This document shows positions 6,516 to 26,393 of a stretch of 26,393 bases of DNA, piece after piece (position 1 is the stretch's first letter; every line of letters begins with the position of its first letter). Source of the stretch: a virus. The notes beneath the pieces were generated by a model. The model had not been told where the DNA came from. It searched no databases and worked only from the letters and a program-made list of their open reading frames with translations. The translations under genes and the position numbers were made by a program. The stretch lies in IMG/VR virus record IMGVR_UViG_3300008111_000208, positions 1 through 26,393 of that record; one strand, written 5' to 3'.

Positions 6516-6739
6516 CGCCACCATCGATATACGATACTATCGAAGCTGATTTCTCCGACGGGCGGCAGGTCGTTCCATCCTGGTGGGGAAGGTATCTTGC
6601 GCCGTATACGGTAGGATACCGAGGTGGTAGACGGGTCCTCTCTTGCACAAAGATGGAGATGCAGGACATTATTAACCGGCGCATGACCGACGATATCTTC
6701 TGGTCAGCTGTCCGTCGTAGCAAACATGGAAGGACATAA
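6512..6739 (+). CDS. Small protein between Cys-rich protein and portal
   Basis: A 75-aa protein with a TTG start overlapping the previous TGA (TTGA). GAGGA lies about 7 nt upstream and there is no ATG before residue 48, so TTG is the best start. It is rich in W, Y and R in the first half (SWWGRYLAPYTVGYRGGRR), ends basic, and its stop overlaps the portal ATG (TAATG). Overlaps on both sides argue that it is a real, coupled gene. No family recognised. Confidence 0.55.
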   Translation: MTPPSIYDTIEADFSDGRQVVPSWWGRYLAPYTVGYRGGRRVLSCTKMEMQDIINRRMTDDIFWSAVRRSKHGRT

Positions 6740-9059: not shown

Positions 9060-10149
9060 TCACTTCTCCACTTTTAGTGGAGTTGGCGGCATTGACCTTG
9101 GCCTAGAAGCAGCTGGATGGCACACCGTTGCCTTTTGTGAAAATGCCCCTTATCAATCTGCCATTATTGCGCAGCAATGGCCGGGTATCCCCAACTTTGG
9201 CGACATCACAACTATTAGCACAGAGCAAACCGGAGAGCCGTGGCAGTCTGCTAGGCTTTGGTCGGCAGGATTTCCCTGCCAGGATTTAAGCAGTGCGGGA
9301 AAACGAAAGGGGTTTGGCGGTGAGCGATCAGTCCTTGCCTTCGCGTTCCTTAACCTCGTCGAAGCGTTCTCCCCGGAGTGGGTCCTCCTCGAAAACGTCC
9401 CCGGACTCCTCACCTCAAACGGCGGAAGAGACATGGGGCGACTCCTCCAGGAAATGGATGGGCTCGGGTATGGCGTGGCGTGGCGAACTGTGGATGCATC
9501 GAGCTTCGGAAGCTGTCAATTGCATGGGGGAAGGCGCCCAGTGCCCCAGCCGCGCCGTCGAGTCTTCCTTCTTGGACATCGTGGAACCAGTCGTGCCGGC
9601 GAGGTTCTTCTTGACACACGGGGAAGCAACGAACTACCTTGGGCGTTCGGTCACAACGTCAGCCAGTGGCACGAAAATCGGTTTTACGCCGGACCTGTAC
9701 CAAATGATCCTGGAAACTATCGACCAGCGGCGTTTGATTTTGCGAAGATTGACTACGCTCGAAATGGAGCGCCTGATGGGCTGGCCGGACGGGCACACAA
9801 TGGTCCGAGGATTCCGACGTCTACACGTCAAGACCACCGGCCGGTAGAGACGCCAAACTCCAGCTCGGGCCAGATCCGCATGTTCCGCAAAAACGAGCGC
9901 AATCAGAAGTCTGGATTCTTTGAGCGCTGGACAGAGGACGGCAAGTTCAGCACCCTCACCGCCTTCTCATCCTCGGGCGTCTTCGGCTCTCACCTGCTTA
10001 CCAGCGGAGCCTGCATTGAGCACCCCCTCCTTGAACGAGCCAACGAATCTACCCGGGCAGACGCATGCGGCAACGGAGTCGTCAGCCAGGTGGCCGAATG
10101 GATTGGACTACGGATTGTAGAAAACATGCGCTTGCACAATGAAATCTAA
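9010..10149 (+). CDS. DNA cytosine-5 methyltransferase, motif IX out of frame
   Basis: A 379-aa open frame from GTG (ATG at 9013 is equally possible). It transfers a methyl group from S-adenosylmethionine to cytosine C5. Motif I is FSGVGGIDLGLEAAGW, motif IV GFPCQDLSSAGKRKG (catalytic Cys90), motif VI LLENVPGLL, motif VIII PQPRRRVFLLG, motif X ACGNGVVSQVAEWIG near the C-terminus. Motif IX, which should lie between VIII and X, is absent from this frame. It is instead read at 9743-9799 in the +1 frame (RRLTTLEMERLMGWPDGHT), where an open stretch runs to a stop at 9847. So the target-recognition region is either disrupted by two compensating shifts or rearranged. Activity is uncertain. It may shield phage DNA from host restriction. 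Confidence 0.8.
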   Translation: MMKSKKSLKPSAAKSLSHFSTFSGVGGIDLGLEAAGWHTVAFCENAPYQSAIIAQQWPGIPNFGDITTISTEQTGEPWQSARLWSAGFPCQDLSSAGKRKGFGGERSVLAFAFLNLVEAFSPEWVLLENVPGLLTSNGGRDMGRLLQEMDGLGYGVAWRTVDASSFGSCQLHGGRRPVPQPRRRVFLLGHRGTSRAGEVLLDTRGSNELPWAFGHNVSQWHENRFYAGPVPNDPGNYRPAAFDFAKIDYARNGAPDGLAGRAHNGPRIPTSTRQDHRPVETPNSSSGQIRMFRKNERNQKSGFFERWTEDGKFSTLTAFSSSGVFGSHLLTSGACIEHPLLERANESTRADACGNGVVSQVAEWIGLRIVENMRLHNEI

Positions 10150-15895: not shown

Positions 15896-15919
15896 GTTTG
15901 GTATTTTAAAAAAATTCTC

Positions 15920-15948
15920 AGCCAGGCCGTGTGCTTGGCTCTTTTTTT
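15920..15948 (+). terminator. Terminator after tRNA-Asn
   Basis: AGCCAGG pairs with CTTGGCT (7 bp, one wobble), 7-nt loop, followed by CTTTTTTT. A strong intrinsic terminator, 25 nt after the tRNA. It closes the rightward region where it meets the leftward cassette array. Confidence 0.85.
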
Positions 15949-16298
15949 GCGCAAGAGGGGTTGAGCCCTCCGGAGCCACGCCCGGGGTCACGCCGGGGAG
16001 TGACAGAAGGAAGGAGAGAGGGAGAGAGCGAAAGAGAGAGGGATGGATGGAGTTGGTAAAATGTTGATTTGTTCGTAGCGCGCAGGCTGGGTAGGGGGGT
16101 GCGCGGGTTCTAGCCGGGGGTTGGGCAGCACATCGAAGGGGGGGCAGCGGGTCTGGTATTCCGTTGACCGCTATGGCCGATCACGGGCAGCCGTACCGGT
16201 AAGGGGTCACCCCCCAGGGCGGCGCGTCGATGTTGGGGCAACGGCCAAAGGGGGGCAACGGGGGGGCGGGGTGTAGAGCTATCAACGGACAACAAGAA
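15949..16298. other. Gene-free junction, purine- and G-rich
   Basis: No supported gene. It holds a 12-nt copy of the tRNA-Asn 3' end (CCTCCGGAGCCA at 15967-15978), a run of GA repeats (about 16009-16050), and G-tracts (for example 16093-16098, 16138-16145). It also has short pieces resembling the spacer modules of the cassette array (GTTGACCGCTATGG; CGTCGATGTT). It lies between converging transcripts and could hold an attachment, origin or packaging site, none of which can be shown from sequence. Confidence 0.4.
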
Positions 16299-16322
16299 AC
16301 CCCACCCCCGAAGGGGTGGGGT
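16299..16322 (-). terminator. Terminator of paralog 1 unit
   Basis: A 10-bp perfect stem (ACCCCACCCC / GGGGTGGGGT) with a CGAA loop; the minus strand continues TTTCTTGTTG. Confidence 0.75.
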
Positions 16323-16347
16323 CTCTTAGTCCCAGAGGGTCAGCGGG

Positions 16348-16779
16348 TCAGCCGAGCGGCTGCGGCTCCCCCGCAATCACCCACGACACCAAGCGGGTCA
16401 GGTTGACGGTGCGGTGCGAGTGGAAGGGGCGGCGGTTCTCACACGCCGAGCCTTCGCGTCCTGCGTTCGGAGCCATCACCACCAAGTCCACGCAAGGCTC
16501 ACCCTTCTTGGTGAGGTACACGCCTTCTGGGTGAACATCGCGGTTCACCTGACCTGCCACCTTGAAGCGGAACACATCACCCTTCTCGGTCTTGATGGAC
16601 TCACCGCAGACCTTCACGCGACCAAGCGCGCGGTGCTCGGCGAAGTTGGCGGCAGCCTTCTTCTCACGAGCCTCAAACTTCTTCTGGGTCGTTGGTGCTG
16701 ACCACGCCTCAACGACGACGATCATACCCCCCGACTTGGCGGCTGCGTTCAGCCCTGCCTTCTGGGTCATACCTGCCAT
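16348..16779 (-). CDS. Cassette protein, paralog 1 of a three-member family
   Basis: A 143-aa protein from the ATG at 16779 (GGGAG 7 nt before; the upstream extension crosses the promoter). It shares a clear pattern with the proteins ending at 20495 and 22642: AWSAPTT near the start, AEHRALGRVKVCGE, KVAGQVNRDVHPEGVYL, KKGEPCVDLVV, and the closing CENRRPFHSHRTVNLTRLVS. The strongly conserved His/Arg-rich end suggests a metal, nucleotide or nucleic-acid site. No known family recognised. It has its own promoter and terminator. Confidence 0.65.
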   Translation of the reverse strand: MAGMTQKAGLNAAAKSGGMIVVVEAWSAPTTQKKFEAREKKAAANFAEHRALGRVKVCGESIKTEKGDVFRFKVAGQVNRDVHPEGVYLTKKGEPCVDLVVMAPNAGREGSACENRRPFHSHRTVNLTRLVSWVIAGEPQPLG

Positions 16780-16837
16780 TTGGCTCTCCCTGTCGGAGCG
16801 GAACCGAGCGGCTCCGTCTGTGTTCCCCGACAACCAG

Positions 16838-16866
16838 ATTCTCGCAGGTCTGGGGTCAGAGCGCAA
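16838..16866 (-). promoter_or_regulatory. Promoter of paralog 1 unit
   Basis: TTGCGC (16861-16866), 17 nt, GAGAAT (16838-16843) on the minus strand. It fits the array pattern but has the weaker TTGCG -35. Confidence 0.5.
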
Positions 16867-16924
16867 GACCCCGACCCATCAGGCGCAACACGCGCAGTTG
16901 CCCGCGTGCCGGTCGCGCCCCTTT

Positions 16925-17125
16925 CTTGGGTGTAAGGGGTAAGGGGTACAGGGGTGAATGAACTGACTGAACGAACTGACTGAACTAACTGATGAGTGAA
17001 GGCCGCAACGCTCGGAGCTTTACGCTCATTGACCGCAAGCCGGGCACGCTTGGCGCGGCGCGTTGCCCGAACATCGACAGAAGGGGGAAAGGGGAGAGGG
17101 GAAGGGGAAAGGGGGGCGAGTAATG
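16925..17125. repeat. Inter-cassette spacer with two G-tract modules
   Basis: First module: GGGGTAAGGGGTACAGGGG (about 16936-16954), then repeated GAACTGACTGAAC elements (to about 17000). A middle part has GCTCATTGACCGC and ACATCGACAGA. Second module: five GGGG or longer tracts at 17087-17117, then GTAATGACGAC. No gene is supported in 16867-17139. Confidence 0.6.
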
Positions 17126-17139
17126 ACGACATAACAAAA

Positions 17140-17167
17140 ACCCCCCACCCCCGAAGGGGTGAGGGGT
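17140..17167 (-). terminator. Terminator of 17.2 kb unit
   Basis: A 12-bp stem with one mismatch and a CGAA loop; the minus strand continues TTTTGTTATG. Confidence 0.8.
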
Positions 17168-17192
17168 CGTTGCCCGACGACCGGGCGAGCGA

Positions 17193-17609
17193 CTAGGCGA
17201 GCGACTCAATCCAAGCGCAAGCGTCGCAGCCTTCGCAGGACTCGTTGCCCAAGCGGTACGCTCCCGCGTGGAACATCTGGTCGCAGGTGAAACCCTTATG
17301 AACGGCGCAGAGGTCGTGCTGCCCCCGCTTCGACATAGACGACGCGCCGAGCGCGGCAAGCACCACATCAAACCAACGATCAAGCCCGACCTTGTCGGCG
17401 TACGCCTCAGCGAAGCCGTAGCACGCCACCGCTTCCTGAACCGAGGCGTGTACGCCGTCGGCGGCAATGACCACCCGCTCAAAGAGGTAGGTGAGCCCTT
17501 CCTTGTTGGTCTCGGTGATGGTTGCCCCTGTGCCGGTCTGAGTCCACTTGATTGCGGTGATGTTGGCGGCGATGTCGTTCACCTCGCCCATCTTCCAATC
17601 CGTAGCCAT
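17193..17609 (-). CDS. Cassette protein with Cys-rich C-terminus, unknown
   Basis: A 138-aa protein with AAGGAG 8 nt before the ATG. The N-terminal third is beta-rich (ITAIKWTQTGTGATITET), then a helical part with DRWFDVVLAALG. The C-terminus has six Cys (HDLCAVHKGFTCDQMF; ESCEGCDACAW), possibly a zinc or iron-sulfur site. Single-gene unit with its own promoter and terminator. No family recognised. Confidence 0.6.
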   Translation of the reverse strand: MATDWKMGEVNDIAANITAIKWTQTGTGATITETNKEGLTYLFERVVIAADGVHASVQEAVACYGFAEAYADKVGLDRWFDVVLAALGASSMSKRGQHDLCAVHKGFTCDQMFHAGAYRLGNESCEGCDACAWIESLA

Positions 17610-17656
17610 TGGTGCGCTCCTTCCTGTGCTGCTCGGTCATCTGCCGAACTACCCAG

Positions 17657-17685
17657 AGTGTACCGGCACACAGGCAACGACGCAA
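17657..17685 (-). promoter_or_regulatory. Promoter of 17.2 kb unit
   Basis: TTGCGT (17680-17685), 17 nt, TACACT (17657-17662). The leader then carries TCGG...CCGA, a GCACAG element and the AAGGAG site. Confidence 0.6.
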
Positions 17686-17751
17686 GCACCCATCGCACCA
17701 GACGCAACGCTGCCCGTGATCGGCCATAGCGCACAGGTGCGGCAGTTCCGG

Positions 17752-18180
17752 TGGGGGATAGGGGTAAGGGGAGTAATGAGTAATGAATGAATAATGAATG
17801 ATGAGTGATGACCGCATTGTCGCAGCTGCGCGGGTGATGACCGTTTATCGACAGACGACGACTACGCGTGGTTGCCCAATGCCGGTGCTGGCCAGTCGGC
17901 GGGGTACGGGGTAATGGGGGAAAGGGGAAGGGGGAAGGGGAACCAATGATGAGTGAATGATGAATGACGAGTAGTGGTCGTCGCAGCTGCGCGCTCATTG
18001 ACCGTTCATCGACAGAGAGCCGCGAAGGTTGCCCAGTGCCGGAGCCGACCAGTTAGGGCAAGGGGTCAAGGGGTACAGGGGGGAAGGGGTGAGGGGTGAA
18101 TGATGATGGGGTGATGATGAATGATGACCGCTCATCGACAGAGAAGCCAGAGCGTTGACCACTACCGGAGCCGAGCGGTA
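17752..18180. repeat. Three-copy long spacer repeat, no gene
   Basis: Copies of a unit of about 125-160 bp: G-tracts (17752-17775; 17900-17940; 18060-18097), GAATGATGA-type repeats, then shared motifs. GCAGCTGCG occurs at 17822 and 17982, exactly 160 nt apart. ATCGACAGA occurs at 17848, 18009 and 18134, after TGACCG. GTTGCCCA and GCCGG follow in copies 1 and 2; copy 3 is shorter and more diverged. No supported gene in 17686-18200. This may be leftover spacer from lost cassettes. Confidence 0.65.
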
Positions 18181-18200
18181 GGGCCAACACAGGGCAACAA

Positions 18201-18230
18201 GAAGCCCCACCCCCGAAGGGGCAGGGCTTC
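18201..18230 (-). terminator. Terminator of 18.3 kb unit
   Basis: A stem of about 13 bp with two adjacent mismatches and a CGAA loop; the minus strand continues TTGTTGCCC. The T-run is weak. Confidence 0.6.
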
Positions 18231-18253
18231 ATTGACCGAGACTCGACCGACGA

Positions 18254-18742
18254 CTAGCGCGCAATCTCCTCATCGTAGGTCAGGCTCAGACCGAGAGCGT
18301 GCTCCAAGTCAAAGACCTTGGCGCGGGTGTAGGCATCAGCCAGCACCGCATTGCGATTGTTGAGCCAGAGCGCGACGATGGTTCGTCGTGCCGACTCAGC
18401 CAGCGGCTCGTAGTCCTCACCGAAGCCCGTCGAGTAGTGGGCAGCGTCGCGTGCCAGTTCGTCAATCTCGTTCTGCCCCATCACCAAGACGACATAGGAG
18501 CCGTCATCGTAGTTGCCCCACTCGGCGGACGATGACCGCACCTCGACCGAGACGAAGTCAAGGTCGCGGCTGGTGTGGTCGTTCCAGAACGCAGCGGGTA
18601 CGACGACGAGGTGCTGCCCGCCCCCGGACTCGGTGTTCGCCTGCGCGGCTTCACCGAACTCCTCAGCCGTCAGCGACTCATTGACCGCCACGATTGCTGC
18701 CCGTACCTCGACGAGCCGCTGCTGGTTCTTCTCCCTATCCAT
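18254..18742 (-). CDS. Cassette protein, unknown, acidic
   Basis: A 162-aa acidic protein with GGAAGGAG before the ATG. N-terminal helix (EKNQQRLVEVRAAIVAVNES), a beta-rich middle (QHLVVVPAAFWNDHTS; DGSYVVLVMGQNEID), and a helical C-terminus (RTIVALWLNNRNAVLADAY). No catalytic motif or family recognised. It has its own promoter and terminator, like its neighbours. Confidence 0.6.
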   Translation of the reverse strand: MDREKNQQRLVEVRAAIVAVNESLTAEEFGEAAQANTESGGGQHLVVVPAAFWNDHTSRDLDFVSVEVRSSSAEWGNYDDGSYVVLVMGQNEIDELARDAAHYSTGFGEDYEPLAESARRTIVALWLNNRNAVLADAYTRAKVFDLEHALGLSLTYDEEIAR

Positions 18743-18793
18743 AGGGCGCTCCTTCCGTCAGGGCGGGTCTGTGCCGACAACCCCAACACCGAG

Positions 18794-18822
18794 AGACTAC
18801 ATCGACAAGCGGTCAGCGTCAA
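18794..18822 (-). promoter_or_regulatory. Promoter of 18.3 kb unit
   Basis: TTGACG (18817-18822), 17 nt, TAGTCT (18794-18799). The leader includes GGCACAGA and the GGAAGGAG site. Confidence 0.65.
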
Positions 18823-18864
18823 GCCCGACGCACCAGACGTAACGCCCGACCTATCCCGTAGTCC

Positions 18865-19100
18865 CAGAAGTAGTGGGGTATAGGGGAAGGGGGTGTAGGG
18901 GTATAGGGGTAATGATGAATGAATGATGACTGAGTGAATGATGACCATGACCGGCCAGCGATTCTCGGAGCTGCGACAAAAACCACCCCGTAGGAACGAC
19001 GGAGAGACGCGAAAGCACGGCAGCCCATACCAGAGCACCCGACTAGTTGGGGGGTAGGGGGAAGGGGTAAGGGGTCATAGGGGAATGAATGATGAATGAT
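18865..19100. repeat. Inter-cassette spacer with two modules
   Basis: Module 1: GGGGTATAGGGGAAGGGGG and further tracts (18876-18911), GAATGATGA repeats to 18948, GGAGCTGCGACAA at 18978. Module 2: G-tracts 19049-19084, then AATGAATGATGAATGATGACC. No supported gene in 18823-19124. Confidence 0.6.
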
Positions 19101-19124
19101 GACCACGACCAGCTGATAAACAAA

Positions 19125-19152
19125 CCACCCCCACCCCGAAGGGTGAGGGTGG
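19125..19152 (-). terminator. Terminator of 19.2 kb unit
   Basis: A 12-bp stem with one mismatch, CGAA loop; the minus strand continues TTTGTTTATC. Confidence 0.75.
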
Positions 19153-19176
19153 CAGTTGCCCGATACCGGCCAGCGA

Positions 19177-19515
19177 CTAGAAGGCGGGAGAGTCCTCTAC
19201 GGCTGCGACGAAGGCGAACGGCTTCCCGTCTACCTCTACCCACGACCCAGCCACAGCGACCAAGCCCACACCAGCCAGCAGGTCAGCGACCCAGGCAGGA
19301 GCCGTCTCCCTGTCGTCGGACTCAGCGCCCCACTCGCCCACGCCCGCGTCAATCTCAACGACGGCGTAGACCGCCTGAATCATTCCGCGCACGATGGGCA
19401 TCGGCTCATCAAACGAGACGGCCTCGGTGCGGTCAAACGACCAGCCCTCACCCAACGCCTCACGCTGACCGCTACCGGCCGCGTCACGCGCTACTGCTAC
19501 CAAGAAACGCCACAT
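19177..19515 (-). CDS. Cassette protein, unknown, small
   Basis: A 112-aa protein from the ATG at 19515 (GAGGGGG 7 nt before); the longer frame runs through the leader hairpin. Sequence MWRFLVAVARDAAGSGQRE..., later MPIVRGMIQAVYAVVEIDAG and a beta-rich end VAVAGSWVEVDGKPFAFVAA. Acidic, no Cys site, no family recognised. Confidence 0.6.
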   Translation of the reverse strand: MWRFLVAVARDAAGSGQREALGEGWSFDRTEAVSFDEPMPIVRGMIQAVYAVVEIDAGVGEWGAESDDRETAPAWVADLLAGVGLVAVAGSWVEVDGKPFAFVAAVEDSPAF

Positions 19516-19537
19516 AGCGTTCCCCCTCTCTGTGCTA

Positions 19538-19595
19538 CTCAGCGGAGCATTGCCGCCGAGGTGATCAGCGTAGCCGGTAGTGGGCAACAACGCAA
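19538..19595 (-). promoter_or_regulatory. Promoter and leader hairpin of 19.2 kb unit
   Basis: TTGCGT (19590-19595), 17 nt, TACGCT (19567-19572). It is followed in the leader by an 8-bp hairpin (19538-19560, 7-nt loop) and GCACAGAGAGG before the ATG. Confidence 0.6.
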
Positions 19596-19644
19596 GGGGT
19601 AGACGCTGACCGTCGCATGCGAACGCCGACCGACGCCGACAGTC

Positions 19645-19705
19645 TGGGGGATAGGGGATAGGGGGGGAAGGGGTACGGGGTAGTAATGATGAGTGAATAA
19701 TGACC
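19645..19705. repeat. Inter-cassette spacer module
   Basis: G-tracts (GGGGGATAGGGGATAGGGGG and two more, 19646-19681) followed by TAGTAATGATGAGTGAATAATGA. No gene in 19596-19728. Confidence 0.6.
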
Positions 19706-19728
19706 GCGTACAGCTATCACCCCAAGAA

Positions 19729-19764
19729 GAAGCCCCCACCCCCCACAGAAGGGGTGAGGGCTTC
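19729..19764 (-). terminator. Terminator of 19.8 kb unit
   Basis: A 14-bp stem with one mismatch and loop CCACAGAA; the minus strand continues TTCTTGGGG. Confidence 0.65.
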
Positions 19765-19779
19765 GGTGGCCGGTAGCGG

Positions 19780-20076
19780 TCAGCGGCTAGTCGTCAAGGC
19801 TCTCCCCGAACTGATAGACCAGCCAGCCATCGCGTCGCACTTAGGGCAGACTCCCGAAGTCGTCGTCTCGGTGCAATCAACCCACGCCGAACGCTCATCG
19901 TCCAGCAGGAACTCGCGCGCGTCATCGGCGGTGTCGGCGTTGTACGCCCCCAAGGTCTCCGCCAACCCAATCAACGCGGTTGCGGCTTCCTGACCCGTAG
20001 CGTGCCACGAGCGGCGAGTCTCGCCCTCCCATACCACCTCAACCAGCCAGAGGCTCTTGGTTTCCGTTGCTGCCAT
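19780..20076 (-). CDS. Cassette protein with CxxC, unknown
   Basis: A 98-aa protein from the ATG at 20076, with GAGGAG 8 nt before. It opens with a beta strand pair (KSLWLVEVVWEGETRRSW), then a helix (EAATALIGLAETLGAY), an acidic stretch, and VCPKCDAMAGW, a single CxxC. The longer frame passes through the leader hairpin. No family recognised. Confidence 0.6.
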   Translation of the reverse strand: MAATETKSLWLVEVVWEGETRRSWHATGQEAATALIGLAETLGAYNADTADDAREFLLDDERSAWVDCTETTTSGVCPKCDAMAGWSISSGRALTTSR

Positions 20077-20099
20077 CTTTGGTTCTCCTCTCTGTGCCA

Positions 20100-20150
20100 C
20101 CGGAAGATTCCGGCTACGCCATCTTATAGGGCCGGTCGCGGTCAAGTCAA
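20100..20150 (-). promoter_or_regulatory. Promoter and leader hairpin of 19.8 kb unit
   Basis: TTGACT (20145-20150), 16 nt, TATAAG (20123-20128), the best promoter of the array. The leader has CCGGAA/TTCCGG (20100-20113) and GGCACAGAGAGGAG. A C-run (G on the minus strand) precedes the -35. Confidence 0.7.
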
Positions 20151-20194
20151 GCCCCCCTCCTAGACCGTCTAGTCCAGCGAGCCCAGCCAGCCAG

Positions 20195-20405
20195 CCCTAG
20201 TAGTAGTGGGGGTCTGGGGGTATGGGGTAGTGGGTGTGAATGATGAATGAATGAATGATGAATGAATGATGAGTGATGAGCGCGGAGCTGCGACGACTCC
20301 GGGGTCTAAGTCGAATGGAGAGCCGGCGCACCGGTACGCGCTGGGGGTGCGGGGGGCAGGGGGGAGTGGGGGATAGGGGTGTGGGGTGAATAATGAACGC
20401 CTATG
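20195..20405. repeat. Inter-cassette spacer with two modules
   Basis: Module 1: G-tracts (20208-20232), a long run of GAATGATGAATGA elements (20238-20280), GGAGCTGCGACGA at 20284. Module 2: G-tracts 20343-20386, then GAATAATGAACGC. Nothing else is supported in 20151-20439. Confidence 0.6.
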
Positions 20406-20439
20406 AAATGTTGCCCGCCTAAAGCTTTTTCCAAATGGA

Positions 20440-20471
20440 GAGGCCGCCACCCCCGAAGGAGCGACGGCCTC
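20440..20471 (-). terminator. Terminator of paralog 2 unit
   Basis: GAGGCCG/CGGCCTC outer stem, an interrupted inner stem, CGAA loop. The minus-strand tail CATTTGG is weak. Confidence 0.5.
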
Positions 20472-20494
20472 AGTACCGACCGGAGCGGAGCCGC

Positions 20495-20962
20495 CTAGCG
20501 GTGCTGTTCCTCGCCGGAGTCCAACCACGACACGAGCCGTGAGAGGTTGATAGTCCGGTGCGAGTGGAACGGCCTACGCTTCTCACACGCAGAACCCGGA
20601 ACGCCGGCGTACTCGCACGCCGTCGTATACCCATACTCGGTTGGCGCGGAGATGACGACATCAACGCAAGGCTCGCCGGCCTTGTTGAGATAGATGCCGC
20701 CCTCGTGAACATCGCGGTTGATGGAGCCGGCTACCTTGTAGACGAAGGAGATGCGCCCCTTCTCGTCTACCTTCTGCTCACCGGTCGTCTTGACGCGACC
20801 AATGGCGCGATGCTCGGCCTCACGAGCCGCTGCTGCGGCCTCACGACGAGCGAACTCCTTCGCGGTCGTTGGCGCGCTCCACGCCGTAAACACCGCGAAC
20901 CGGCCACCGAGCCGGTCGGCTGCGGCCATCGCCGCCGCGTGCGTCATTCCTACCTTGCCCAT
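20495..20962 (-). CDS. Cassette protein, paralog 2 of a three-member family
   Basis: A 155-aa protein, closest to paralogs 1 (16348) and 3 (22642). It shares AWSAPTT with paralog 1, AEHRAIGRVK with 3, VAGSINRDVHEGGIYL with 1, and the segment APTEYGYTTAC almost unchanged with 3. It ends CEKRRPFHSHRTINLSRLVS like the others. N-terminal half is a long Ala-rich helix (ARREAAAAAREAEHRA). GGAAGGGG precedes the ATG. No known family recognised; the His/Arg end is the most conserved part and probably functional. Confidence 0.7.
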   Translation of the reverse strand: MGKVGMTHAAAMAAADRLGGRFAVFTAWSAPTTAKEFARREAAAAAREAEHRAIGRVKTTGEQKVDEKGRISFVYKVAGSINRDVHEGGIYLNKAGEPCVDVVISAPTEYGYTTACEYAGVPGSACEKRRPFHSHRTINLSRLVSWLDSGEEQHR

Positions 20963-20982
20963 TTGCTACCCCTTCCTGTGCT

Positions 20983-21036
20983 GCCGGTTCATCAGACCGG
21001 CTGAGGCCAGTATACACACCCCACCGCAGAACGCAA
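20983..21036 (-). promoter_or_regulatory. Promoter and leader hairpin of paralog 2 unit
   Basis: TTGCGT (21031-21036), 16 nt, TATACT (21009-21014). The leader has GCCGGT/ACCGGC (20983-21001) then GCACAGGAAGG. Confidence 0.65.
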
Positions 21037-21079
21037 GCCCCCCCTAGCGGGTAGGCCACCGGAGCCGGCGTGCCGGTCT

Positions 21080-21150
21080 AAGAGTCTGGGGGTCTGGGGG
21101 TCTGGGGGTATAGGGGCGTAGTGATAAGGCGTAGTAATGACGCGCCTGAA
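21080..21150. repeat. Inter-cassette spacer module
   Basis: GTCTGGGGGTCTGGGGGTCT and a further tract (21084-21116), then GTAGTGATAAGGCGTAGTAATGA. The CTGAAATGTTGCCCG segment at about 21146-21160 also appears before the paralog 2 terminator (about 20402-20417). No gene in 21037-21180. Confidence 0.55.
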
Positions 21151-21180
21151 ATGTTGCCCGTGTGAAGCTCTACAAAGAGA

Positions 21181-21214
21181 GAGGCCACCCCCCGCACAGA
21201 TGGGGAGTGGCCTC
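21181..21214 (-). terminator. Terminator of 21.2 kb unit, GCACAGAT loop
   Basis: GAGGCCAC/GTGGCCTC outer 8 bp, one mismatch, then CCCC/GGGG, loop GCACAGAT. Minus-strand tail CTCTTTGT. Confidence 0.7.
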
Positions 21215-21233
21215 GGAGACGAACCGGAGAGGT

Positions 21234-21692
21234 CTAGCGGTAGTCGCTCGGCATCACCGGATTGTGGAGCGAGTCAATCCACACCGCGCCAATCATCGGC
21301 GTATCCATCAGGTCAGACTCAACAACCTCAAAGACCTCGGCACCGATAGCCGAAGTCTCGCCGCCGAAAGCGTCTACGAAGGCCGCGAACTCGACCGGAC
21401 TCTCGGCAAAGGTCGCCGCCTGAGCCGGAGTCATCGTCTTCCAATCGCTCCCCTCGTGGTACGCCCAGAAGGAGCCGCCGCGCTCGTCGTCAGCCCAACC
21501 AATCAGAACAGCCAGAGCCGTTCCGTAAGTTGGCACATAAGCGATGAGGTCGTCGCCGTCGCCGTAGCGCACATAAACGCGGAAGGCCGCGTCAGCCGGG
21601 AGCGTCTGGCGGCAAGCCGGGCAGGTTCCCTGCGCCTGATTGCCAAGGTACTTCTGAACCCACTTCTGAGCCGTACTCCTGATGTCGTTCAT
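21234..21692 (-). CDS. Cassette protein with CxxC, unknown
   Basis: A 152-aa protein from the ATG at 21692, with AAGGAAGGA before it; the much longer frame runs through promoter and spacer. N-terminal helix (STAQKWVQKYLGNQAQ), then GTCPACRQTL (one CxxC), a beta-rich part (AAFRVYVRYGDGDDLIAYV), and an acidic C-terminal half. The CPAC segment could bind zinc with residues not seen, or act as a redox pair. No family recognised. Confidence 0.6.
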   Translation of the reverse strand: MNDIRSTAQKWVQKYLGNQAQGTCPACRQTLPADAAFRVYVRYGDGDDLIAYVPTYGTALAVLIGWADDERGGSFWAYHEGSDWKTMTPAQAATFAESPVEFAAFVDAFGGETSAIGAEVFEVVESDLMDTPMIGAVWIDSLHNPVMPSDYR

Positions 21693-21720
21693 CTTGTCCT
21701 TCCTTCCTGTGCCTGTGCCG

Positions 21721-21769
21721 TTGGCAAGTGCCAACACCAGAAAGGTAGCAGGTCTACACCAGAAGTCAA
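21721..21769 (-). promoter_or_regulatory. Promoter and leader hairpin of 21.2 kb unit
   Basis: TTGACT (21764-21769), 16 nt, TACCTT (21742-21747). The leader hairpin TTGGCA/TGCCAA (21721-21734) is followed by GCACAGGCACAGGAAGGAA, in which the GCACAG element occurs twice. Confidence 0.65.
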
Positions 21770-21827
21770 GCCCCCCCCTAGCGAGCCGGTATCCGGCACG
21801 GCCGCAGGTATCCGGTAGATGGTGGGG

Positions 21828-21915
21828 GTCTGGGGGGTCGGGGGTATGGAGTAGGAATAATGACTGACTAATGACTGACTGATAACTGATCGCGGAGCTG
21901 CGACAAGTGCCGGAA
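21828..21915. repeat. Inter-cassette spacer module
   Basis: G-tracts (21822-21845), then TGACTGACTAATGACTGACTG, GATCGCGGAGCTGCGACAAG at about 21888. The 317-bp stretch 21693-22009 otherwise contains only promoter, leader and terminator elements. Confidence 0.55.
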
Positions 21916-21954
21916 AAACCAAGCTGGGCTCTTAACAATCCCTTAACAAATGAA

Positions 21955-21988
21955 GAGGCCGCCGGGGGCACAGATCCCCGACGGCCTC
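21955..21988 (-). terminator. Terminator of 22.0 kb unit, GCACAGAT loop
   Basis: GAGGCCG/CGGCCTC, one mismatch, CGGGG/CCCCG, loop GCACAGAT. Minus-strand tail TTCATTTGTTAAGG. Confidence 0.8.
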
Positions 21989-22009
21989 GTAGACAACCGG
22001 AGCGAGCGA

Positions 22010-22378
22010 CTACATCGGGAAGCCGCCGCGCTCCAACGCCGAGATGATCCGCGCTACTTCGTTAGCCGTGAAGCCGCGCAGGTTCTCGTTGTGAACGAGT
22101 GAGCAGGTGCCGACCAGACCGCCGCCGTTGAGATAGGCCGGTGCGCTCTTAGTGGCAACAGCGAGAACATCGCACGCGGTCAGGTTGAGTTCAGGGTCGG
22201 ACTTCAGCAGCCCTTCCTCATCGGCAATCACCGAAACCTCAACGCCGCCAATCTTGCCGTGGCCGACAATCTCCACCATCTCGCACTCGGTCGCAGCGTA
22301 GAGGCCATCAAGCCCTTCACCGCGCGCCGTAATGGTGATCTTGCCCGGAGCGATCCTGAGAGCGTAAATGTTCTCCAT
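22010..22378 (-). CDS. Cassette protein, unknown, beta-rich
   Basis: A 122-aa protein from the ATG at 22378 with AAGGAAGGA before it. Beta-rich first half (IYALRIAPGKITITARGEGL; ATECEMVEIVGHGKIGGVEV), a short loop with VATKSAPAYLNGGG, and a closing helix (TANEVARIISALERGG). The pattern suggests a small mixed alpha/beta fold. No family recognised. Single-gene unit. Confidence 0.6.
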   Translation of the reverse strand: MENIYALRIAPGKITITARGEGLDGLYAATECEMVEIVGHGKIGGVEVSVIADEEGLLKSDPELNLTACDVLAVATKSAPAYLNGGGLVGTCSLVHNENLRGFTANEVARIISALERGGFPM

Positions 22379-22402
22379 CTTGTCCTTCCTTCCTGTGTCT
22401 AT

Positions 22403-22450
22403 CGGGAAGCCCCGACTCATAGAGAATACACGACTCACCGCAGAAGTCAA
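22403..22450 (-). promoter_or_regulatory. Promoter and leader hairpin of 22.0 kb unit
   Basis: TTGACT (22445-22450), 16 nt, TATTCT (22423-22428). Leader hairpin CGGG/CCCG (22403-22414) then ACACAGGAAGGAAGGA. Confidence 0.65.
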
Positions 22451-22485
22451 GCACCCAGCCTAGACCACCCAGCGCAGCTCAAAGT

Positions 22486-22560
22486 GTTGGGGGGGTGTGG
22501 GGGAGTGGGGTACGGGGTCGCAGGTACGAGTACGGCCTGAATAATGAACTGATAAGAACC
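22486..22560. repeat. Inter-cassette spacer module
   Basis: G-tracts (22489-22519), then CTGAATAATGAACTGATAAG. AACCAAGCTGGGTTTGCCGG is close to the sequence before the 22.0 kb terminator (about 21917-21930). No gene in 22451-22586. Confidence 0.5.
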
Positions 22561-22586
22561 AAGCTGGGTTTGCCGGAGCAAAGAGA

Positions 22587-22624
22587 GAGGCCGCCACTCC
22601 CGCACAGATGGGAGCGACGGCCTC
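22587..22624 (-). terminator. Terminator of paralog 3 unit, GCACAGAT loop
   Basis: GAGGCCG/CGGCCTC, interrupted middle, CTCCC/GGGAG, loop GCACAGAT. Minus-strand tail TCTCTTTGC. Confidence 0.7.
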
Positions 22625-22641
22625 GGAGATAGTGCGAGCTG

Positions 22642-23097
22642 CTAGCCCTCGACTTGTTCCTCACCCGCGATCACCCACGACACGAGGCGCGTGAGATTCA
22701 CGGTGCGGTGCGCGTGAAACGGCTTCCGCTTCTCGCAAGCAGTACCAACCTTCCCCGCGTTAGGACAGGCCGTAGTGTAGCCGTACTCCGTGGGTGCTCC
22801 GATGATGAGCGAGAGCGTAGGCTCGCCCTTCGCGTTGTGAACGATTCCGGTGGCGTCTTGCGTGCGGTCAAGCATACCGGAAGCCGTGAACAGGAACGAC
22901 ACGCGCCCCTTCTCATCGTAGCGAGCTTCGCCGGACACCTTCACGCGACCAATGGCGCGGTGCTCGGCCTGTCGCCCTGCTGCGCCTTCCTCACGACGCT
23001 CCAAAGTGCGCGGCGTTGTCCAATCACTCCACGCCGTCAGGGTGGTGATCTTACCGGCGGCCTTCGCCGCTGCTGCTAGTGCTTGCTGTGTGTTCAT
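22642..23097 (-). CDS. Cassette protein, paralog 3 of a three-member family
   Basis: A 151-aa protein starting MNTQQALAAAAKAAG with GGAAGGAAGGA before the ATG. Shared with the paralogs: AEHRAIGRVKVSGE, DEKGRVSFLF, NAKGEPTLSLII, APTEYGYTTAC and the end CEKRKPFHAHRTVNLTRLVS, followed by WVIAGE as in paralog 1. It differs in the middle (DRTQDATGIV in place of NRDVHEGGIY), so that segment is not essential to the fold. Function unknown. Confidence 0.7.
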   Translation of the reverse strand: MNTQQALAAAAKAAGKITTLTAWSDWTTPRTLERREEGAAGRQAEHRAIGRVKVSGEARYDEKGRVSFLFTASGMLDRTQDATGIVHNAKGEPTLSLIIGAPTEYGYTTACPNAGKVGTACEKRKPFHAHRTVNLTRLVSWVIAGEEQVEG

Positions 23098-23119
23098 AGG
23101 TTCCTTCCTTCCTACTACG

Positions 23120-23170
23120 CCGGAAAGCTCCGGTGATCAGATACTACAACCAACCACCGCAGCTCGTCAA
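23120..23170 (-). promoter_or_regulatory. Promoter and leader hairpin of paralog 3 unit
   Basis: TTGACG (23165-23170), 18 nt, TAGTAT (23141-23146). Leader hairpin CCGGA/TCCGG (23120-23133) then AGTAGGAAGGAAGGAA. A long C-run (23173-23181) borders the -35. Confidence 0.6.
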
Positions 23171-23218
23171 GCACCCCCCCCCTACCCTATCGCCGGCCTA
23201 TCCCAGCGCAGCTCGAAT

Positions 23219-23270
23219 CGTTGGGGTCTGGGGTGCGGGGTAGAGAGTGCGCGTGAATAATGAATAATAA
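23219..23270. repeat. Inter-cassette spacer module, short form
   Basis: TTGGGGTCTGGGGTGCGGGG (23221-23240), then GCGTGAATAATGAATAATAA leading into the next terminator. This is the shortest spacer seen. Confidence 0.5.
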
Positions 23271-23272
23271 AA

Positions 23273-23299
23273 ACCCCCAGAGTGATGAGCTCTGGGGGT
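23273..23299 (-). terminator. Terminator of 23.3-24.1 kb operon
   Basis: A 10-bp perfect stem (ACCCCCAGAG / CTCTGGGGGT), 7-nt loop; the minus strand continues TTTTATTATTC. The strongest terminator of the array. Confidence 0.85.
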
Positions 23300-23325
23300 G
23301 TGATACCGGGGGAAGGTTTCCCGGC

Positions 23326-23595
23326 TTAGATAAAGGGCTCCTCGCCGCTCTCCATCAGGATAAAGCGTGCGACCATCTTGGCCGTGGTTTCGGTGTCGTC
23401 ATACTTGCCGAGCACCGGATACCCTGCCGTACAACCGGCGGAGTAGTCGTAGCCATCATCAGCACGCTTCCACAGCGTACCGCCGAAGTTCACGCCGTCG
23501 GTGCTCATCAAGGCCACCCACGCGTCGTCCGCGAGGTCAATGCGCAAGTATCCGGCCTCGTTCATCTCGTAGGCCTCAGTTCCTTCTAGTGCCAT
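23326..23595 (-). CDS. Small acidic cassette protein, unknown
   Basis: An 89-aa protein from the ATG at 23595, with AGGAG 7 nt before. Sequence MALEGTEAYEMNEAGYLRID, later DAWVALMSTDGVNFGGTLWK and a closing helix (TAKMVARFILMES). It lies 47 nt after the previous stop without a terminator between, so it is probably the last gene of the operon that begins at 24069. No family recognised. Confidence 0.6.
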   Translation of the reverse strand: MALEGTEAYEMNEAGYLRIDLADDAWVALMSTDGVNFGGTLWKRADDGYDYSAGCTAGYPVLGKYDDTETTAKMVARFILMESGEEPFI

Positions 23596-23642
23596 CTCAT
23601 CACTCCTATCTTTGACCGGAAGCCCACACAGCCCCCGCAACA

Positions 23643-23837
23643 TTAGTCTAACACCAAGAACGCAAACACCGCAAGCACCACCAGAGAAGCTACACGCCAA
23701 GTAATCTCCTCACGGCGGCGGCGACGAACCCAATCCTCGGTGTCGCGCTGATACTGCGACTTCGTGATAACCGGGTGATAGATTGGCTTGCTGAAATCTT
23801 GTACGCACGAAGGGTAATCCCGATACGACTTACTCAT
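23643..23837 (-). CDS. Tail-anchored single-pass membrane protein, small
   Basis: A 64-aa protein. Residues 1-47 are polar and end in a basic cluster (WVRRRRREEITWR). Residues about 48-63 (VASLVVLAVFAFLVL) form one membrane helix at the very C-terminus, so the N-terminal part should face the cytoplasm. The start overlaps the previous gene and GAGGAG precedes the ATG. It may act at the host membrane (for example superinfection exclusion or a lysis helper), but nothing in the sequence decides this. Confidence 0.6.
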   Translation of the reverse strand: MSKSYRDYPSCVQDFSKPIYHPVITKSQYQRDTEDWVRRRRREEITWRVASLVVLAVFAFLVLD

Positions 23838-24069
23838 ACTCGCTCTCCTCTAATGGGTATCCGGCGTTCTCCAACACCTCAATCATACACGCGCGCACGG
23901 CTTCCTTGTAATCACCGAAGGTCGCGCGCTCTCCGGGGTAGAACCCCCGGAAGTCCACATCGGGCAGGTCATCAGGGGTCAGGCCGCACTTGGCCTCAAC
24001 CTTGCGCGCCACCGCGACATAGAACTTGCTGAACGGAACTTCCAGAACCTCGTTCGTATCCCTACTCAT
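23830..24069 (-). CDS. Small acidic protein, first gene of operon
   Basis: A 79-aa protein starting MSRDTNEVLEVPFSKFYVAV with AAGGAG 6 nt before the ATG. Acidic, helical C-terminal half (YKEAVRACMIEVLENAGYPL). Two neighbours begin in a similar way (the genes starting at 24487 and 24848, both xSRN), with similar leader sequence AAGGAGTA(C/T)C, which hints at duplication of the translation start region. No family recognised. Confidence 0.6.
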   Translation of the reverse strand: MSRDTNEVLEVPFSKFYVAVARKVEAKCGLTPDDLPDVDFRGFYPGERATFGDYKEAVRACMIEVLENAGYPLEESEYE

Positions 24070-24091
24070 CAGGTACTCCTTCCTACTACGC

Positions 24092-24141
24092 CGGCAAGTG
24101 CCGACTACTGAACACTACACCCACTACTGCGCTGTCGTCAA
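24092..24141 (-). promoter_or_regulatory. Promoter and leader hairpin inside upstream gene's 3' end
   Basis: TTGACG (24136-24141), 18 nt, TAGTGT (24112-24117). The -35 lies within the last codons of the gene ending at 24124. Leader hairpin CGGCA/TGCCG (24092-24103), then AGTAGGAAGGAG. Confidence 0.6.
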
Positions 24142-24348
24142 GGCCTCAGTTGGGTCAAAGGATTCAGGGCGTTCGGCTGCCACCCAAGCGTCAAGCTCCA
24201 CGCGCCACTTCCACGGACGCTCAATAAGGTCAAGCAACAAATCGCAGCGGTCATCAGACTCCGCATACTCCGCATACCCGCCGCGAACCATTGCGCGAGC
24301 AAACGCCAACACATCGAGTTCGTTGTAAGGCCAATCAAATCGTCCCAT
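24124..24348 (-). CDS. Small Trp-rich acidic protein, unknown
   Basis: A 74-aa protein from the ATG at 24348, which has AGGAAGGA about 8 nt before. A TTG 24 nt upstream also lies in frame but has no ribosome site. Sequence MGRFDWPYNELDVLAFARAM, then acidic CDLLLDLIERPWKWRVELDAW. It overlaps the upstream gene by 14 nt. No family recognised. Confidence 0.55.
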   Translation of the reverse strand: MGRFDWPYNELDVLAFARAMVRGGYAEYAESDDRCDLLLDLIERPWKWRVELDAWVAAERPESFDPTEALTTAQ

Positions 24349-24487
24349 TATCTCGTCCTTCCTGTACGCCAATCTCCTCTAACGAGGCCAGATACGCGTC
24401 GGCAAAGCACTCCGCGCAGATACGCGATTCGTACTGCCGGTCGTCCTCTACTTCACTCCCGCACCAAGTACAAGCGTTCCTACTCAC
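24335..24487 (-). CDS. Small zinc-ribbon-like protein
   Basis: A 50-aa protein from GTG at 24487, with AAGGAG 6 nt before. The longer frame to 24520 has no ribosome site. Two CxxC pairs, CTWC and CAEC, about 20 residues apart, form a typical zinc ribbon. The tail is acidic. It overlaps both neighbours. Such tiny zinc-ribbon proteins often contact DNA or host enzymes; no specific partner can be named. Confidence 0.6.
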   Translation of the reverse strand: MSRNACTWCGSEVEDDRQYESRICAECFADAYLASLEEIGVQEGRDNGTI

Positions 24488-24848
24488 CTGATACTCCTTC
24501 CTTATGAGCCGCATACTCATCGGCTACCCTGAGAGCATACTGCTTGGCTTCCTCAAAGTCAAGCAATACCTCGCCGTCCTCGTTCTCCCCCCAGATGACC
24601 TCAAACCACGGATTATTGTGCCACTCAATCGTGCCGGCCTCCTCAGCGGCGGCGAGCTTCTCGTCGGTATCAAGCCCCTTCTCATCGAGGTCGTTTGTAT
24701 ACCGGAGAACACTCGTGCTGCCGTCTGGCTCGGTAAAGTGAATCCTCATCTCGCCAGCCCGGTACACAACGACTTCCTTATCGTCGGTGAACCATACCGG
24801 GTCGGAATCGTGGTACTGCGTAAAGAAGGCCGCGTCGTTCCTGCTCAT
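24480..24848 (-). CDS. Acidic cassette protein, unknown
   Basis: A 122-aa strongly acidic protein from the ATG at 24848 (overlapping the upstream TAA). Beta-rich first half (DPVWFTDDKEVVVYRAGEM; then STSVLRY), Asp/Glu-rich middle, and EWHNNPWFEVIWGENEDGEV before a closing helix (KQYALRVADEYAAHK). The negative charge could mimic DNA, as some phage inhibitors do, but this is only a suggestion. No family recognised. Confidence 0.6.
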   Translation of the reverse strand: MSRNDAAFFTQYHDSDPVWFTDDKEVVVYRAGEMRIHFTEPDGSTSVLRYTNDLDEKGLDTDEKLAAAEEAGTIEWHNNPWFEVIWGENEDGEVLLDFEEAKQYALRVADEYAAHKEGVSGE

Positions 24849-25054
24849 TAGTTCCACCCAACTTCCTGCCAAGCGACAAAGCACTCGTCGCAAAGGTCTA
24901 CCGATTCCTCATAGGCGTTCTCATAGCCGTTCCACCCATAGCGGAAAGGCCGCGCCTTCACCCCTTCGTGCGACCACTCAGGCCAACGGCGTGCGTTCTC
25001 GCACTCTGCCGGCTGCTCCTGCGGTTCACCAACCGGAATCTCAAAAAAGTCCAT
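24848..25054 (-). CDS. Small acidic protein with CxxC, first gene of operon
   Basis: A 68-aa protein with GGAAGGAG 7 nt before the ATG. Cys18 and the CDEC pair near residue 56, plus His29, may bind zinc. Several aromatic residues (RRWPEWSHEG; RPFRYGWNGYENAY). It opens a four-gene overlapping unit (25054 to 24124). No family recognised. Confidence 0.6.
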   Translation of the reverse strand: MDFFEIPVGEPQEQPAECENARRWPEWSHEGVKARPFRYGWNGYENAYEESVDLCDECFVAWQEVGWN

Positions 25055-25097
25055 CTGTCCTCTCCTTCCTCTACACCGGCAATCACCGGCACAACGA

Positions 25098-25126
25098 ATC
25101 CTAAACGATACAATCTACGCCGTCAA
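25098..25126 (-). promoter_or_regulatory. Promoter of 24.1-25.1 kb operon
   Basis: TTGACG (25121-25126), 17 nt, TAGGAT (25098-25103), placed directly after the RNA-B terminator. Confidence 0.6.
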
Positions 25127-25133
25127 GTATGAA

Positions 25134-25177
25134 GGGGAGAGTCGCCTAGGGAAACCACTCCCAAGTTGCGACTCCCC
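25134..25177 (-). terminator. 3' hairpin of RNA B
   Basis: GGGGAGAGTCGC pairs with GCGACTCCCC (10 bp with a 2-nt bulge); an inner GGGA/TCCC is possible. The minus-strand tail TTCATACTT is moderately T-rich. Confidence 0.55.
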
Positions 25178-25343
25178 CCAAACCCTTTCGCGGCATTGAC
25201 GCTTATCCCTAATCACAGAGGCAACATCGGCTCTCGCCTAGTTGCTGCCACCGACACCCCTGTTGGTTAGACCCAAGCTCGGTGGCCTTATCGTCTCGGG
25301 CAGTTCGTCTATCTGCCAACTATCCGGCCTCTACCCGGAACGG
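25134..25343 (-). ncRNA. Structured non-coding RNA candidate B
   Basis: About 210 nt with no coding frame that looks real. It has its own promoter (25350-25378) and a long terminal hairpin. On the minus strand it folds as a series: UCCGG/CCGGA, GGCAG/CUGCC, then an 8-bp stem GCCACCGA/UCGGUGGC (25247-25286) that encloses UUGG/CCAA. Next is GCAAC/GUUGC (25221-25245) holding GGC-GAGA-GCC with a GNRA loop, and last the 3' hairpin. No known RNA family recognised. Ends are estimates. Confidence 0.55.
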
Positions 25344-25349
25344 AATACA

Positions 25350-25378
25350 AGACTACAACATAAGAATAAGGGAGTCAA
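25350..25378 (-). promoter_or_regulatory. Promoter of RNA B, embedded in RNA A terminator
   Basis: TTGACT (25373-25378), 17 nt, TAGTCT (25350-25355). The -35 is the 3' arm of the RNA A terminator, so one RNA's end overlaps the next one's start. Confidence 0.6.
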
Positions 25379-25397
25379 GCCCGAAGGCCTGACTCCC
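25370..25397 (-). terminator. UUCG-capped terminator of RNA A
   Basis: GGGAGTCA/TGACTCCC plus GGCC/GGCT around a TTCG loop on the minus strand, 12 bp, followed by TTATTCTTATG. The tail is T-rich only on the minus strand, which sets the direction. Confidence 0.8.
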
Positions 25398-25648
25398 AGA
25401 CCGGTAGCTCGCCGGCCTCTTGTCCTGAAACCTTCGGGAGCCGTCGCCCCCAAAAGTTTCAGTAGACTATTCGCTTCCGCCGGTATTGGCCTAAACCTTC
25501 CGGCTTCCACTTACAATCTTGCTCTCCCGCATTTACAGCAGCGATTAGAGCCCATCACTCGCCTGAACCACTTCGCATTTATCGGCTGCGTGCTTTGTTC
25601 CTAACACTCTCACCTATTCGGTAGCTTCTCCTAGGATTGCTCCCGACA
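25370..25648 (-). ncRNA. Structured non-coding RNA candidate A
   Basis: About 280 nt with no convincing protein. The 3' end has three adjacent hairpins on the minus strand. A stem of about 17 bp lies at 25425-25462 (CUGAAAC/GUUUCAG at its base, GACG loop), then AGGCCGG/CCGGUCU (25398-25418), then a UUCG-capped terminator. Upstream are GCCGG/CCGGC and GCUCU/AGAGC pairings. It does not show the marks of tmRNA (no tRNA-like 3' end), RNase P or 6S. Its promoter is weak at -10, so the 5' end near 25648 is uncertain. Confidence 0.55.
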
Positions 25649-25653
25649 TAAGG

Positions 25654-25682
25654 AGTTTCTCACAGGCGTATCAGCAAGTCAA
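25654..25682 (-). promoter_or_regulatory. Possible promoter of RNA A
   Basis: TTGACT (25677-25682), 17 nt, GAAACT (25654-25659). The -35 matches the array; the -10 is weak. Confidence 0.4.
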
Positions 25683-25719
25683 GTAAGTTGCGGATAAGGT
25701 TTGTGTAAGGAATCTTAAC

Positions 25720-25790
25720 TATTTTGGGGTATGGGGTATGGGGTACGGGGGCGCATGAATAGGCCGGCCTGATGATGTCGAGCTACAAAA
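25720..25790. repeat. Inter-cassette spacer module before radC terminator
   Basis: GGGGTATGGGGTATGGGGTA and GGGG (25725-25751), GCATGAATAGG, TGATGATGTCGAGCTACAAA. Same module order as the other spacers. Confidence 0.55.
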
Positions 25791-25794
25791 AGAA

Positions 25795-25823
25795 TCCCCC
25801 GGTGGGAGGACTCCACCGGGGGG
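25795..25823 (-). terminator. Terminator of radC-like gene
   Basis: A 10-bp GC-rich perfect stem (CCCCCGGTGG / CCACCGGGGG), 7-nt loop; the minus strand continues GATTCTTTTTGTAG. Confidence 0.85.
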
Positions 25824-25865
25824 ATAGGACTCGCGGGAGGGAGGACACCGCCCCGCAAGTCGTAG

Positions 25866-26381
25866 TTAGTTTGCTCCGCCCATAACGCGCAGCCGATTGT
25901 CCTCCTCAAAGATTCCTGGCTTCCCTGACCTAATGCTCGTGAACGCGCCGTTGCTGCCCACAACCAAGTGGTCAATGAACGACAGGTCGAGCAGCGACGC
26001 GGCCTTCGCCACCTCGCTCGTCAGGCTGATGTCCTCATCAGAAGCCTGAGAATCGCCCGATGGGTGATTGTGAACGAGCGCGAACCCTACCGCTCCCATG
26101 AGCAACGCCGAGCGAATCAGTTCACCAATGCGAACCGAAGTGCCTGTCGCCGTACCCTGATAGACGCGATGGATACCGAGCAGGTTGTTGCGCCCACCGA
26201 ACGCGATGACGAACAACGCCTCACTCATCTCAGCGTCAGCGAACTCGCGGAACAAGGCCGCAAGGTCGCGTGGGCTTGTGATGACCGCCGACTTGTTGGT
26301 GCGTGCGACACGCTTGACCGAATACTCGTAAGCGTTCCACATACCGGTTTCGGCAATGCTATTAGCCTTCCTCTTTGCCAT
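25866..26381 (-). CDS. RadC-like JAB-domain protein
   Basis: A 171-aa protein. Residues about 45-165 form the RadC/JAB (MPN+) domain: EALFVIAFGGRNNLLG, then HNHPSGDSQASDEDISLT, the JAMM-type HxHPSG...D metal motif, and LSFIDHLVVG. It lacks the N-terminal helix-hairpin-helix of full RadC (about 220 aa), having instead a short basic N-terminus (MAKRKANSIAE). Related proteins are common on mobile elements; the biochemical role is unsettled, with a zinc-dependent peptidase-type fold. AGGAGG lies 5 nt before the ATG. Its promoter is outside the window. Confidence 0.85.
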   Translation of the reverse strand: MAKRKANSIAETGMWNAYEYSVKRVARTNKSAVITSPRDLAALFREFADAEMSEALFVIAFGGRNNLLGIHRVYQGTATGTSVRIGELIRSALLMGAVGFALVHNHPSGDSQASDEDISLTSEVAKAASLLDLSFIDHLVVGSNGAFTSIRSGKPGIFEEDNRLRVMGGAN

Positions 26382-26393
26382 AAGTCCTCCTAG

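Follow-up and report, generated by a model that had tools for sequence, protein, structure and literature searches.

The question raised by this locus is what is encoded next to the radC gene near the end of the window (the whole 26,393-nt stretch of viral DNA that was analyzed), where a folded minus-strand region has no evident protein product. The radC gene of this uncultured phage group adjoins two folded non-coding RNAs, denoted here RNA A and RNA B, and both units are present on the minus strand, between positions 25647 and 25134, where a preliminary description had placed them; the RNA features and promoter-like sites discussed below are all on this strand. Folding of the 591-nt minus-strand stretch 25130-25720 yields -241.7 kcal/mol, which corresponds to z = -5.5 relative to dinucleotide shuffles; the plus strand of the same stretch gives z = -3.25. 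Coding on either strand can be excluded, in agreement with the earlier impression that there is no convincing frame: the minus strand (25647-25134) carries no coding signal; substitutions across the RNA stretch lack a 3-base periodicity, falling in all three codon phases; frame-breaking indels (1, 2, 7 and 14 nt) are common among homologs; and a 120-codon antisense open reading frame (25242-25604) is frameshifted between relatives and has no Pfam match. In every comparison, synonymous changes in this antisense frame are fewer than random.

Relatives were collected from IMG/VR through the neighboring radC gene. A blastn search identifies the RNA stretch in loci L002-L019 with identity of 75-100%, pattern scans brought in L036, L045 and several partial or single-module loci, and the homolog set was confirmed with a nucleotide profile and a covariance model (R1). 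Wherever the sequences of L002-L022 and L045 include the flanks, radC lies upstream, followed by a promoter with CTTA repeats. The RNA was sought in the distant radC phages L021, L023 and L024 and is absent from them, and no further copy was found within the same genomes (two weak second-copy matches were dismissed on inspection). A match in Bifidobacterium aquikefiri, those in loci L042, L043 and L046, and most loci of one later candidate batch were rejected as chance matches. No close relative was found among GenBank phages, nor did the major capsid protein have a match among them; psbA, sought as a pointer to a cyanobacterial host, gave no match, a result that is uninformative either way.

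The covariation test for both RNAs together employed 115 base pairs, taken from the RNAalifold consensus after removal of the promoter helices, in 11 distinct sequences. In this test, 98.2% of the pair cells form, compared with 36-49% when the partner is slid by 1-3 columns, a difference that is partly explained by the structure having been drawn from the same alignment. Fourteen pairs are changed on both sides, against a shuffled mean of 7.6 (0/500 shuffles reach this value) and only 0-3 pairs in the slid controls. A test of RNA B, performed with nine sequences including L152 and L153 (alignment A5) and with hairpin P7 left out, detects changes on both sides in 12 of the 29 pairs (3.7 in shuffles; 0-2 in slid versions), with 97.7% pairing. 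Because P7 is misaligned by MAFFT, its arms were paired by hand: the seven distinct arm pairs are 96% canonical, a value that drops to 46% after swapping arms between homologs, and at least two standard pair types are seen at each position. Compensating changes in homologs are thus abundant, far above both the shuffled and the slid controls, and the stems on which the preliminary description relied are maintained by covariation. The shapes of RNA A and RNA B have been kept by evolution while their sequences changed.

A search of the window with Rfam 15 at the gathering score detects only two tRNAs, both elsewhere, and a search of the stretch and its relatives at permissive E-values yields no credible family, which bears out the claim that no recognized family is involved. 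The Rfam models of GOLLD and ROOL have no match in the window or its relatives, and a literature search found nothing resembling RNA A or RNA B. The two RNAs are new as families but belong to a known general kind, the ornate phage RNAs, outside GOLLD and ROOL. To our knowledge, phages have few structured RNA families with good support, GOLLD and ROOL being the best known. The present RNAs resemble GOLLD in being phage-encoded, large, elaborate and non-coding, and in the combination of a conserved 3' part with a more variable remainder (PMC12286853); unlike GOLLD, which exceeds 800 nt, the modules here are about 210-280 nt each, and their loci are not adjacent to tRNA genes (nine loci, covering up to 10.5 kb of surrounding sequence, contain none; the two tRNAs of the window are ~9 kb away). 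The resemblance to ROOL lies in the occurrence in phages or prophages, the complex fold and the lack of a known protein partner (PMC12286853), but ROOL is one RNA of ~660 nt, whereas two short separable modules are found here. GOLLD and ROOL are best regarded as analogues only. The frequency of GGA motifs, a feature of sponges of the CsrB/RsmZ type, is by hand count near the composition expectation.

RNA A, the 5' module (~25366..25646, ends approximate), is delineated by homology and covariation and occurs alone in L020. The part located 5' of P2 shows little variation among homologs. P3 (25464..25519), supported by covariation, consists of an outer helix, a purine-rich internal loop and a GCCGG/CCGGC hairpin, with 2 pairs changed on both sides and 98.9% of the outer-helix cells paired; the 17-bp hairpin P4 (25425..25462) has 4-5 pairs changed on both sides and 100% of its cells paired. 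As described previously, three hairpins stand side by side at the end of RNA A (25462-25425, about 25416-25402 and 25397-25370), the last of which is UUCG-capped and was flagged as a terminator (25370..25397; 12-bp stem, T-rich tail). The P3 loop contains the palindrome UGGCCA (UGAUCA in L007 and L017), a possible kissing loop. This palindrome, the large size and elaborate structure of the phage-encoded RNAs, their mostly GNRA-capped arms and the precedent of GOLLD and ROOL, both of which form cages (PMC12286853), would be compatible with assembly of the RNAs with their own copies, or of RNA A with RNA B, into an RNA-only particle. Such assembly appears unlikely, given that the altered palindrome probably reflects a single event, with a local 3-bp hairpin as an alternative, that both modules fall short of GOLLD and ROOL in length, and that no helix joining RNA A with RNA B shows convincing covariation.

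RNA A is preceded by a promoter-like site, TTGACT - 17 - GAAACT with an upstream TGn (25654..25682), which was identified from sequence and is conserved in position in the alignment; the predicted start is near 25646. The -10 element is weak in the clade of the window, and CATAAT is found instead in L020, L022 and L045. Just upstream of the -35 element, every RNA A homolog carries three CTTA blocks with 11-bp spacing (25684..25709 in the window); across the 8 sequence versions of this element, CTTA is kept (with one ATTA) and the spacers vary; this triple pattern has no other occurrence in the window or in the examined loci of the relatives. A Pho box or other OmpR/PhoB-type site calls for three or more tandem half-sites, repeating every 11 bp, upstream of a promoter, and the RNA A promoter has this arrangement. 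Sites of the OmpR/PhoB family with this geometry include the cyanobacterial Pho boxes (PMC1906773) and the PmrA box (PMC3973317), and the RNA A promoter shares with them CTTA-type half-sites that recur head to tail, with a period of 11 bp, close to the core promoter (PMC1906773, PMC3973317). The RNA A repeats are CTTATCC- or CTTACAC-like; relative to the half-site sequence CTTAACCT, each repeat matches in 4 to 7 of 8 letters. A search for a phage-encoded Trans_reg_C protein found none, so that a host regulator might act at the CTTA repeats, a possibility that we treat as a lead only. The CTTA-phased promoter suggests regulated expression of RNA A, possibly by such a regulator. A pairing between promoter and RNA proposed by RNAalifold (CCUUAUC/GAUAAGG) was rejected: it is broken in L006, L008 and L045 without compensation and is further disfavored by conservation of the motif in L020, which has no RNA B.

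In the clade of the window only, the modules are separated by a ~69-nt segment (25349..25417) that comprises two hairpins, the terminator and the RNA B promoter. The RNA B promoter-like site, TTGACT - 17 - TAGTCT (25350..25378), has its -35 box within the 3' arm of the RNA A terminator. It belongs to a promoter class, TTGAC-N16-18-TANNNT, with nine minus-strand sites in 15900-26393 (0.3 expected) and 0 on the plus strand; eight of the nine sites precede a Shine-Dalgarno sequence and a start codon, often ~57 nt past the start of the -35 box, and the RNA B site is the only one with neither within 180 nt. Four sister phages (L006, L007, L008 and L017) lack both the segment and a TTGAC site at the module junction and, to judge from sequence, would make one continuous RNA. 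By extension, the window could also produce a single continuous RNA of ~510 nt, with the 69-nt segment representing extra hairpins; this is very unlikely because the segment contains both a flagged terminator and a site of the phage's promoter class, and the predicted start at this promoter coincides with the beginning of RNA B homology.

The modules also occur singly. L020 encodes RNA A without RNA B; the R1 match in this locus is weak (E = 0.026) but is supported by the promoter and the position. In L152 and L153, RNA B directly follows the stop codon of another gene, R1 finds no RNA A in either contig (both are fragments), and inspection reveals no promoter of the phage's class between the stop codon and RNA B. 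L022 and L045 possess RNA A and, by inspection only, a diverged RNA B, the latter not being recognized by model R2 in either locus. Because each module occurs alone elsewhere, and the two are fused in the sister phages and split in the clade of the window, RNA A and RNA B are two separable, portable RNA modules that exist fused, split or single. The preliminary description of two tandem RNAs is thus supported by the separate promoter-like site and terminal hairpin of each unit and by their solo occurrence, with the qualification that the four sister phages would make the modules as a single RNA.

RNA B, the 3' module (~25134..25343, ends approximate), is supported by covariation and by a match of model R2 to 25185-25342. 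In its 5' part lie hairpins P5 (25323..25339; UCCGG/CCGGA, with GCCGC/GCGGC in L152 and L153) and P6 (25299..25317; GGCAG/CUGCC, with 3 of the 5 pairs changed on both sides). These are followed by a closing helix (25189..25298) in which GACG (25295-25292) pairs with CGUC (25201-25198), with CG/CG outer pairs; the GACG/CGUC helix is invariant in alignment A5 and appears, by inspection, as CACGA/UCGUG in L022 and L045. The closing helix surrounds three hairpins: P7 (25248..25285; CCACCGA/UCGGUGG), for which the seven arm pairs demonstrate covariation; P8 (25221..25245), with 6 of 8 pairs changed on both sides and a GNRA loop that is GAGA in the window and GGAA or GAAA among homologs; and P9 (25207..25220), with partial covariation and mostly GUGA or GCAA loops, the exceptions being L017, L153 and the longer P9 of L013 and L019. 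Thus, RNA B is modeled to fold as a four-way junction, with the closing helix around P7, P8 and P9, and the GNRA-class loops of P8 and most P9 suggest a compact tertiary fold. The stem of the terminal hairpin P10 (25134..25179) is rebuilt in several sequence versions. The multi-part stem, the GNRA hairpin and the terminal stem that had been noticed in RNA B correspond to P7, P8 and P10, respectively. Versions of P7 and P10 common to otherwise different members of the family suggest recombination.

In the window, the terminator prediction did not flag P10, whose tail is T-poor; in L153, P10 is followed by CCCCUUUUUAUUU, and RNA B there ends in a perfect terminator. Together with the location of RNA B in L152 and L153, immediately behind a stop codon and, by inspection, with no such promoter in between, this arrangement also fits a cis role, in which RNA B, as a structure at the 3' end, would protect or terminate the preceding transcript. 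This role is improbable, considering that RNA B in the window comes after a non-coding RNA and is served by a promoter-like site of its own, that a 200-nt four-way junction exceeds the needs of termination, and that all nine A5 sequences share unchanged internal motifs such as GGGAUAAGCGUCA. The RNA B region of L153 folded alone adopts much the same arrangement.

We consider it probable, at about 0.6, that this locus specifies two structured RNAs that fold separately and act in trans by binding a partner. Under this hypothesis, the promoter with three CTTA half-sites would drive RNA A, which would end at the UUCG terminator; the second promoter, with its -35 element inside the 3' arm of that terminator, would drive RNA B, ending at P10, and RNA B would form the four-way junction and its compact tertiary fold. 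The two RNAs would then fold separately and act in trans, as a scaffold or a decoy, on a macromolecule of the host or the phage to which they bind. This interpretation is favored because of the covariation, the lack of coding signal and the gene-less promoter of the phage's class beside a flagged terminator, and also because the modules occur alone, no inter-module helix is supported and RNA B of L153 folds on its own. Counting against it are the weak -10 element of RNA A, the T-poor tail of P10 and the cis-compatible placement of RNA B in L152 and L153, the transcript ends being predicted. Transcription, separate transcripts and action via a macromolecular partner are what we infer from these features.

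The preliminary description also mentioned decoys of host RNAs. Recognition by sequence, whether as a decoy of ribosomal RNA or as an antisense RNA, is extremely unlikely: the RNAs share with rRNA short words only, such as GGGAUAA, also found in 23S and 16S rRNA, the scores of sense and antisense alignments with E. coli 16S, 23S and 5S rRNA are within the shuffled range, and the Rfam scans show no rRNA family. More speculatively, RNA A and RNA B could be exchangeable parts of a bipartite RNA machine, made as a single molecule or as two assembling pieces, with RNA B also employed solo, that would form an RNA-only or ribonucleoprotein particle during infection; we regard this as doubtful. The fused, separated and single natural variants, combined with strong covariation, make it possible to ask which part does what, and RNA B alone (~210 nt) is small enough for structure determination and pull-down.

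Several additional features were observed around the RNAs. A small gene located after them (24848-25054 in the window; also in L020, L022 and L045) has no Pfam or PHROG match in the window; its YGWNGYENAYE...LCDEC-like tail is kept among the relatives, and the N-termini differ. In L153, the minus-strand region after the RNA B terminator (9400-9480) contains imperfect short tandem repeats of the TTATG(C/T)(G/C) type. Between 16250 and 25751, the plus strand of the window contains thirteen distinct stretches that each have four runs of G, mostly GGGGTANGGGG-like, and are possible G-quadruplexes. The minus strand has none, and neither do the first 16 kb; several of the stretches appear to be placed between a terminator and the promoter of a gene on the minus strand, and the relatives carry the same C-rich elements. 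Finally, the portal gene of the window (6739-8910) continues into a fused C-terminal extension that weakly matches phosphatase families of the polynucleotide kinase type.
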